Of a stretch of DNA of 64,000 nucleotides, positions 13,314 through 36,870 are shown in pieces; within the stretch, counting starts at the first letter, position 1, and every line of letters begins with the position of its first letter. Under the pieces are notes generated by a model, which saw only the letters and a list, made by a program, of their open reading frames with translations, was not told the DNA's origin and did not search any database. This DNA comes from Halogranum gelatinilyticum. Lineage in GTDB: Archaea > Halobacteriota > Halobacteria > Halobacteriales > Haloferacaceae. The stretch covers positions 372,001 to 436,000 of the forward strand of contig NZ_FNHL01000004.1 in NCBI RefSeq assembly GCF_900103715.1, written 5' to 3'. The translations under genes and the position numbers were made by a program.

Positions 13314-13487
13314 CGGGCCGGGAGGGACTTGAACCGGGCCGAGACGTGCTCGCTCACTTCGGCAGAGCAAGCTCTGCCGTGCTCTCGCTCGTTCGTTCAC
13401 GAGAACTTCGTTCACTGTGCGCGACTCGTCGGGTTCAGTCCTCCCGCGTTCGACTGACACCGCTCGCTGTCGCTCGCGGGTCAAGTA
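13314..13487. repeat. tRNA-Lys-derived debris with a 22-bp copy of the tRNA 3' end
   Basis: Positions 13314-13335 repeat 13488-13509 exactly (22 bp), covering the discriminator base, the 3' acceptor strand and most of the T-arm of the neighbouring tRNA-Lys gene. Between the copies lie a perfect 20-bp palindrome (13360-13379, CGGCAGAGC-AA-GCTCTGCCG) matching the tRNA D-arm, and an opposite-strand T-arm-like stretch (13429-13447). No complete cloverleaf can be drawn. It looks like an attachment-site scar or a decayed tRNA duplicate. Confidence 0.7.
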
Positions 13488-13602
13488 CGGGCCGGGAGGG
13501 ACTTGAACCCCCGACCGTCTGGTATCTCCCGCAACCACACGCAAAACGGCTCGTGTAGTCGCGATAAAAGCCAGACGCTCTGCCGAACTGAGCTACCGGC
13601 CC
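13488..13602 (-). tRNA. tRNA-Lys (anticodon UUU) with 41-nt intron
   Basis: Minus-strand cloverleaf: acceptor GGGCCGG/CCGGCCC, D-arm GCTC...GAGC, anticodon stem TCTGG/CCAGA, T-arm GGGGG-TTCAAGT-CCCTC, discriminator G. The mature RNA is 74 nt (exons 13602-13565 and 13523-13488), and its spliced anticodon loop CTTTTAA gives UUU. CCA is not encoded. A CTTAAG TATA-like element (13628-13633) lies about 28 nt upstream. The intron sits at the canonical 37/38 position. Confidence 0.95.
13524..13564 (-). other. Archaeal tRNA intron (bulge-helix-bulge) in tRNA-Lys
   Basis: The 41-nt intron folds into a canonical hBHBh motif: outer helix TCTGG/CCAGA, 4-bp central helix CTTT/GGAG (with G-U pairs), 3-nt bulges TAT and ATA, and an 11-bp inner helix (CGCGACTACAC with GTGTGGTTGCG). 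Cleavage after the second base of each bulge restores the loop CTTTTAA exactly. Processing would be by the archaeal splicing endonuclease EndA. Confidence 0.9.
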
Positions 13603-36420: not shown

Positions 36421-36870
36421 TGTGGCTGAGAGGAGTAAGCCCCCTTCTGTTCCTCCCGACATTCGGCTGAGCGTCCGCGTCCTGCGTTCGGACTACCTTT
36501 GGGCACGCGGTCGACGCACGAATCGCGTCGAGTCGCGCGCCGCGTGGCACGGACTTGCACCGGTGAGGATTCGCCGTTCCATCCGTTCTCGGCCGTCTAC
36601 TCGCGGGCGCGAGGCGCCCGTTCGTGTTCGAGATGCGTGGCATCTCGCTGCCCTCGACGGGTCAACTCCCCTCCCTCGCGGTCGGGTTCGCACGTCTCAT
36701 CGGTCGGGCCGAGTGGTCTCGTTTCTGTTCCAGAGCCAGCCGTCTCCGACTCCGGGCTTGCGCCCGGTCACCCGTCCGAACGGTGGGGGGACTTTCCTCA
36801 TGCACCGGGGCACGTCGGCCGAAGGCCGCCGTGGGGTTCCGGCGCACGGTGGTCGGGCTCTCTCTGCCGA
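36421..36870 (-). ncRNA. rnpB: RNase P RNA
   Basis: The minus strand has the universal RNase P core: GAGGAAAGTCCCCCCAC (CR-I, near 36795) and ACAGAAGGGGGCTTACTC (CR-IV/V, near 36440). AGTCCCCC pairs with GGGGGCT to form helix P4. GGCAGAGAG (36867-36859) and CTCTCAGCC (36432-36424) can close P1 with one mismatch, giving ends near 36870 and 36421. A TTATTT promoter element lies at ~36893-36898. The ~450-nt length suits haloarchaea. The ends are estimated to within ~10 nt. It cleaves 5' leaders from pre-tRNA. Confidence 0.9.

Follow-up and report, generated by a model that had tools for sequence, protein, structure and literature searches.

The minus strand of the Halogranum gelatinilyticum stretch that we analysed (64,000 nucleotides, hereafter the window) carries at 13602-13488 what we are highly confident is a working tRNA-Lys(UUU) gene, present as a single copy and split by a canonical archaeal intron of the protein-spliced type; that it is spliced in vivo, and precisely where it is cut, we infer. 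The intron itself is real, and the split gene is almost certainly functional. The features of the gene are as follows:

13602-13488, minus strand: tRNA-Lys(UUU) pre-tRNA, 115 nt (Rfam and ARAGORN)
13565-13602, minus strand: 5' exon, tRNA positions 1-37, with the anticodon UUU (Rfam, ARAGORN, orthologue identity)
13524-13564, minus strand: intron, 41 nt, site 37/38, with an inner stem of 12 bp and a loop of 10 nt (ARAGORN, BHB-frame alignment)
13488-13523, minus strand: 3' exon, tRNA positions 38-73 (Rfam, ARAGORN, orthologue identity)
13567-13570, minus strand: 5' strand of the BHB central helix, CUUU (tRNA positions 32-35), partner of GGAG at 13526-13529
13526-13529, minus strand: 3' strand of the BHB central helix, GGAG (sequence, intron alignment)
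13564-13566, minus strand: 5' bulge UAU, with a predicted cut after base 2 (BHB rule)
13523-13525, minus strand: 3' bulge AUA, with a predicted cut after base 2 (BHB rule)

The split tRNA-Lys(UUU) gene

The original prediction, made from the letters alone, was of a tRNA-Lys(UUU) gene with a canonical BHB intron of 41 nt at position 37/38, and this was borne out to the nucleotide on the minus strand. The Rfam tRNA model RF00005 matched 13602-13488 end to end with 56.7 bits, placing the additional bases as an insertion within the anticodon loop. ARAGORN, when introns were allowed, returned tRNA-Lys(ttt), with an intron of 41 nt at 37/38 ('tttta-Intron-accag') and a mature length of 74 nt. The bulges TAT and ATA and the central helix CTTT/GGAG were likewise present as claimed (UAU, AUA and CUUU/GGAG in the RNA), with G-U pairs making up 2/4 of the central helix in this species; the inner stem had been given as 11 bp and is 12 bp in the BHB frame (CGCGACTACACG/CGTGTGGTTGCG). 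In keeping with a canonical BHB intron, the insertion lies at 37/38 and the two 3-nt bulges and 4-bp helix are flanked by the anticodon stem and the intron stem; the spliced exons make a good tRNA, 100% identical to intronless orthologues in four genomes from its own family (G009, G022, G028 and G035). The pre-tRNA folds at -62.5 kcal/mol (z = -5.8), and 0/200 shuffles folded as low.

We propose that the precursor would fold into the hBHBh' motif around the anticodon, that EndA would cut after base 2 of each 3-nt bulge, and that RtcB would then ligate the exons, leaving an anticodon loop that reads CUUUUAA; the excised intron would probably form a circle. The H. gelatinilyticum genome encodes one splicing endonuclease EndA and one ligase RtcB, and the EndA of Haloferax has been reported to need the full hBHBh' motif (PMC7714728).

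Comparison of the intron with its counterparts in other haloarchaea showed its structure to be conserved. Each of the 45 distinct introns that haloarchaea have at this site kept the central helix paired at 4/4 positions, and the BHB geometry was the same in 45/45. (Boundaries in this comparison were set by pattern; ARAGORN gave wrong internal boundaries on some introns.) Over eight positions of the inner stem in the 45 introns, 90% of cells were paired in register, as opposed to 31-46% when the partner was slid and a maximum of 79% over 1000 shuffles of the column partners. As the central pairs are kept in 45/45 introns and the inner stem is paired well above both the slid and the shuffled controls, the BHB motif is not due to chance. 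Compensatory changes were found in the inner stem, where +3/-8 occurs as GC, AT and CG, and +4/-9 as CG, AT, TA, TG and GT. This covariation, together with the kept helix, speaks for selection on an RNA structure, as one would expect of an EndA substrate.

ARAGORN at its default settings, with introns disallowed, missed the gene at 13488-13602, as might happen if this were a decaying pseudogene with an insertion, the cell being served by some other Lys(UUU) gene. We find such decay scarcely credible: the exons are perfect, the intron structure is conserved across families, a search of the genome gave no second, intronless Lys(UUU), and the tRNA-Lys(CUU) found there by ARAGORN is a separate gene that is not expected to read AAA. 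Moreover, intronless and intron-bearing Lys(UUU) patterns never occurred together in one genome of a 146-genome haloarchaeal sample, none of the 15 intron-bearing genomes having an intronless copy, and thus the split gene is the only Lys(UUU) copy found.

Distribution and history of the intron

Using a pattern fitted to haloarchaea, we identified a Lys(UUU) intron at 37/38 in 38/392 Halobacteriales genomes (about one in ten), representing 13/95 genera and five families; these and our other intron counts are lower bounds, since divergent stems escape the patterns. All three Halogranum examined have the intron, and the named carriers include Haloferax, Halobaculum, Halorussus, Halorientalis, Halosimplex, Salinibaculum, Haloglomus, Haloplanus, Halomicrococcus and Halogranum. 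Six loci of the named scan (L066, L073, L075, L084, L088 and L090) were left out of the haloarchaeal counts; one of these, L073, matched the intron pattern in a record titled as a Prevotella MAG. When a wider pattern was run on the phylum sample, 21 genomes outside Halobacteriales proved to have a Lys(UUU) intron, and the 16 distinct sequences checked all had 4/4 central pairs. These other Halobacteriota introns (families f18, f31, f32, f33, f38 and f40) resemble that of H. gelatinilyticum in tRNA, site and intact 4-bp central helix, but are 14-37 nt long and do not resemble the haloarchaeal introns in their inner sequences.

The tRNA introns inventoried for Haloferax volcanii are those of Trp, elongator Met and Gln only, with Lys unlisted (PMC2584109, PMC2841640, PMC7714728), and those inventoried for Haloquadratum are in Trp and Met, again with Lys unlisted (PMC3119063); we found no description of a haloarchaeal tRNA-Lys intron in the open-access literature. 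According to a review, introns are found in all archaeal isodecoders, those of euryarchaea lying at the canonical position (PMC4090602). The Lys intron is like the H. volcanii introns in its 37/38 site, its hBHBh' motif and its expected EndA/RtcB route, and differs from them in residing in another tRNA and in having no visible C/D guide; the introns of Trp and Met are also longer. The suggestion that an intron in tRNA-Lys is unusual therefore holds in part: Lys is absent from the cited Haloferax and Haloquadratum inventories, but the intron recurs in the 38/392 Halobacteriales genomes and 21 genomes elsewhere. Nor is it the rule among haloarchaeal relatives, a finding that would have removed its novelty, as Lys(UUU) was intronless in 116 and intron-bearing in 15 of the 146 sampled genomes. 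We regard it as an intron of a known kind, uncommon yet widespread, that may already be catalogued in GtRNAdb, and with it tRNA-Lys(UUU) joins the intron-bearing haloarchaeal tRNAs named in the cited literature. As a separate observation, the tRNA-Gln(UUG) gene of H. gelatinilyticum (L134, C1:942544-942616) is intronless, and its H. volcanii counterpart has an intron.

The same neighbour genes were found beside tRNA-Lys(UUU) in many intron-bearing and intronless genomes; the locus is thus mostly orthologous, with gain and loss largely taking place at an orthologous locus. When the presence of the intron was placed on the tree of one neighbour protein it required 10 parsimony changes, at least 4 of them forced by supported branches. 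These changes could also be read as horizontal transfer of whole intron-bearing tRNA genes in place of descent with loss, a reading that we regard as doubtful given that in many genomes the same genes flank the tRNA whether or not it is split. The patchy intron at a largely syntenic locus reflects several gains or losses. Judged by their similarity, the haloarchaeal Lys introns are likely to derive from a single ancestor, although shared constraints could mimic such likeness. With the intron gained or lost repeatedly at a single orthologous locus, this is a clean case in which to ask what keeps tRNA introns in archaea.

One answer would be that the intron is spliced but kept for a function of its own, either as a guide RNA, as the tRNA-Trp intron holds a C/D guide (PMC2584109), or by shielding the anticodon region from integrases, a role in guarding against viral integration having been suggested for the tRNA introns of archaea (PMC4090602). 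We consider this quite improbable for the Lys intron, whose 41 nt have no visible C/D or C'/D' boxes (no CTGA and no RTGATGA) and which has undergone several losses or gains. In addition, a downstream duplicate of the tRNA 3' end is present at 30/44 intron-bearing loci and 12/24 intronless loci, which shows the intron to be no bar to 3'-end events. As a 41-nt sequence lacking C/D guide boxes, the intron is most likely functionless in itself and would have been kept by inheritance with repeated loss.

Repeated tails behind tRNA-Lys and other tRNA genes

The region directly downstream of the tRNA-Lys gene contained a second, exact copy of the tRNA 3' end, set among hairpins:

13314-13335, minus strand: second copy of the tRNA-Lys 3' end, exact, 22 nt, 174 nt downstream
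13432-13445, minus strand: imperfect inverted copy, GGGAGGACTGAACC, hairpin partner of the 13314-13335 copy
13454-13484, minus strand: first hairpin of the downstream unit (fold)
13336-13487, minus strand: hairpin-forming spacer between the tRNA-Lys 3' end and the tail copy

At the gathering score Rfam identified no family over 13314-13487. As at an attachment site the tRNA 3' end is duplicated in direct orientation, but the gap between the copies, at 152 bp, holds no integrase-bearing element. When the three Halogranum species were aligned the units were seen to end in the Lys tail copy, and H. amylolyticum is without the first unit of H. rubrum, the join falling at the tail copy. At least one Lys(UUU) tail copy lies within 400 nt in 42/68 distinct haloarchaeal loci, intron or no intron, and these copies match each host's own tRNA sequence. 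In HArc-gm2 (Halobacteria archaeon; L042/L072, G300) there are four successive Lys(UUU) tail copies, all of the host's own variant sequence.

Such repeats are not confined to tRNA-Lys. In the H. gelatinilyticum genome the final 17 nt of the gene recur within 400 nt downstream (at most one mismatch) for 20/45 distinct tRNA genes, as compared with 2 upstream, 0 in reverse and 1/1884 for the tails of tRNAs for other amino acids; as 2 of the 20 repeats are complete neighbouring tRNA genes, ~18/45 (about 40%) remain as units. The copied segment begins at the T-loop. One filler-type pattern, used in a whole-genome search blind to tRNAs, had matches in 8/99 genomes, and in the loci that were fetched every match (24/24 rows, 20/20 distinct places) lay 46-215 nt behind a tRNA gene on the same strand. 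Partial samples of three other haloarchaeal genomes had tail copies behind 10/30 tRNA genes; there were none behind the 27 tRNA genes of a methanogen control or the 22 tRNA genes of loci outside Halobacteriales, and two cassette patterns had no match in viral contigs.

The units fold well (median z -3.5), and many have an arm complementary to their own tail copy. The complementarity is exact in 17/95 units, versus 1/1490 foreign arms, and with one mismatch it extends to 46/95 units, versus 13/1490 foreign arms; with up to 3 edits 92/95 units have such an arm, a weak result in that foreign arms often pass too.

Possible nature of the units

We suggest, at roughly even chances, that these sequences belong to an undescribed class of haloarchaeal element: short noncoding units (~80-210 nt) that form hairpins and follow tRNA genes directly. 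Each would close with a ~22-nt repeat of the 3' end of its own tRNA and contain an arm complementary to that repeat; the units stack in arrays of up to four and can be precisely present or absent between tail copies. We found no description of them in the open-access literature. The nearest likeness is to the end of a haloarchaeal prophage in Haloquadratum, where a 22-nt tRNA 3'-end duplication has been reported (PMC3119063), and it is this shared duplication of a 22-nt tRNA 3' segment that favours an origin by recombination. Unlike the prophage, the unit copies are ~70-210 nt apart with a hairpin-forming filler that leaves no space for an integrase, and they occur at many tRNA genes at once. 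A simple remnant of a prophage attachment site was set aside, given the short spacing, a structured filler that is shared between isotypes and the recurrence behind many tRNA genes.

The units could be non-autonomous, integrase-dependent cassettes, or they could be a structured RNA module in tRNA trailers. Recombination between copies could account for their homogeneity; by itself it would leave the tRNA-specific complementary arm unexplained, and that arm would fit an RNA role. If the class is real, its members would be mobile cassettes of a new kind directed at tRNA ends, or else a novel RNA element within tRNA transcripts, and the units may then matter more than the intron.

Other observations

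Several further RNA features were seen. The H. gelatinilyticum genome has an odd tRNA-like gene (L146, C2:155670-155763) that ARAGORN reports as Pro(GGG); its anticodon loop holds a 13-nt insertion, and its acceptor stem does not resemble those of the other Pro genes. A tRNA-Thr(UGU) gene lies ~1 kb away. In another haloarchaeal genome (G038, C1:2635124-2637763) about a dozen tRNA-like matches, several of them low-scoring, are packed into 2.6 kb, possibly a mobile tRNA array. Finally, the window holds an archaeal RNase P RNA at 36424-36830 on the minus strand (Rfam, 117 bits).
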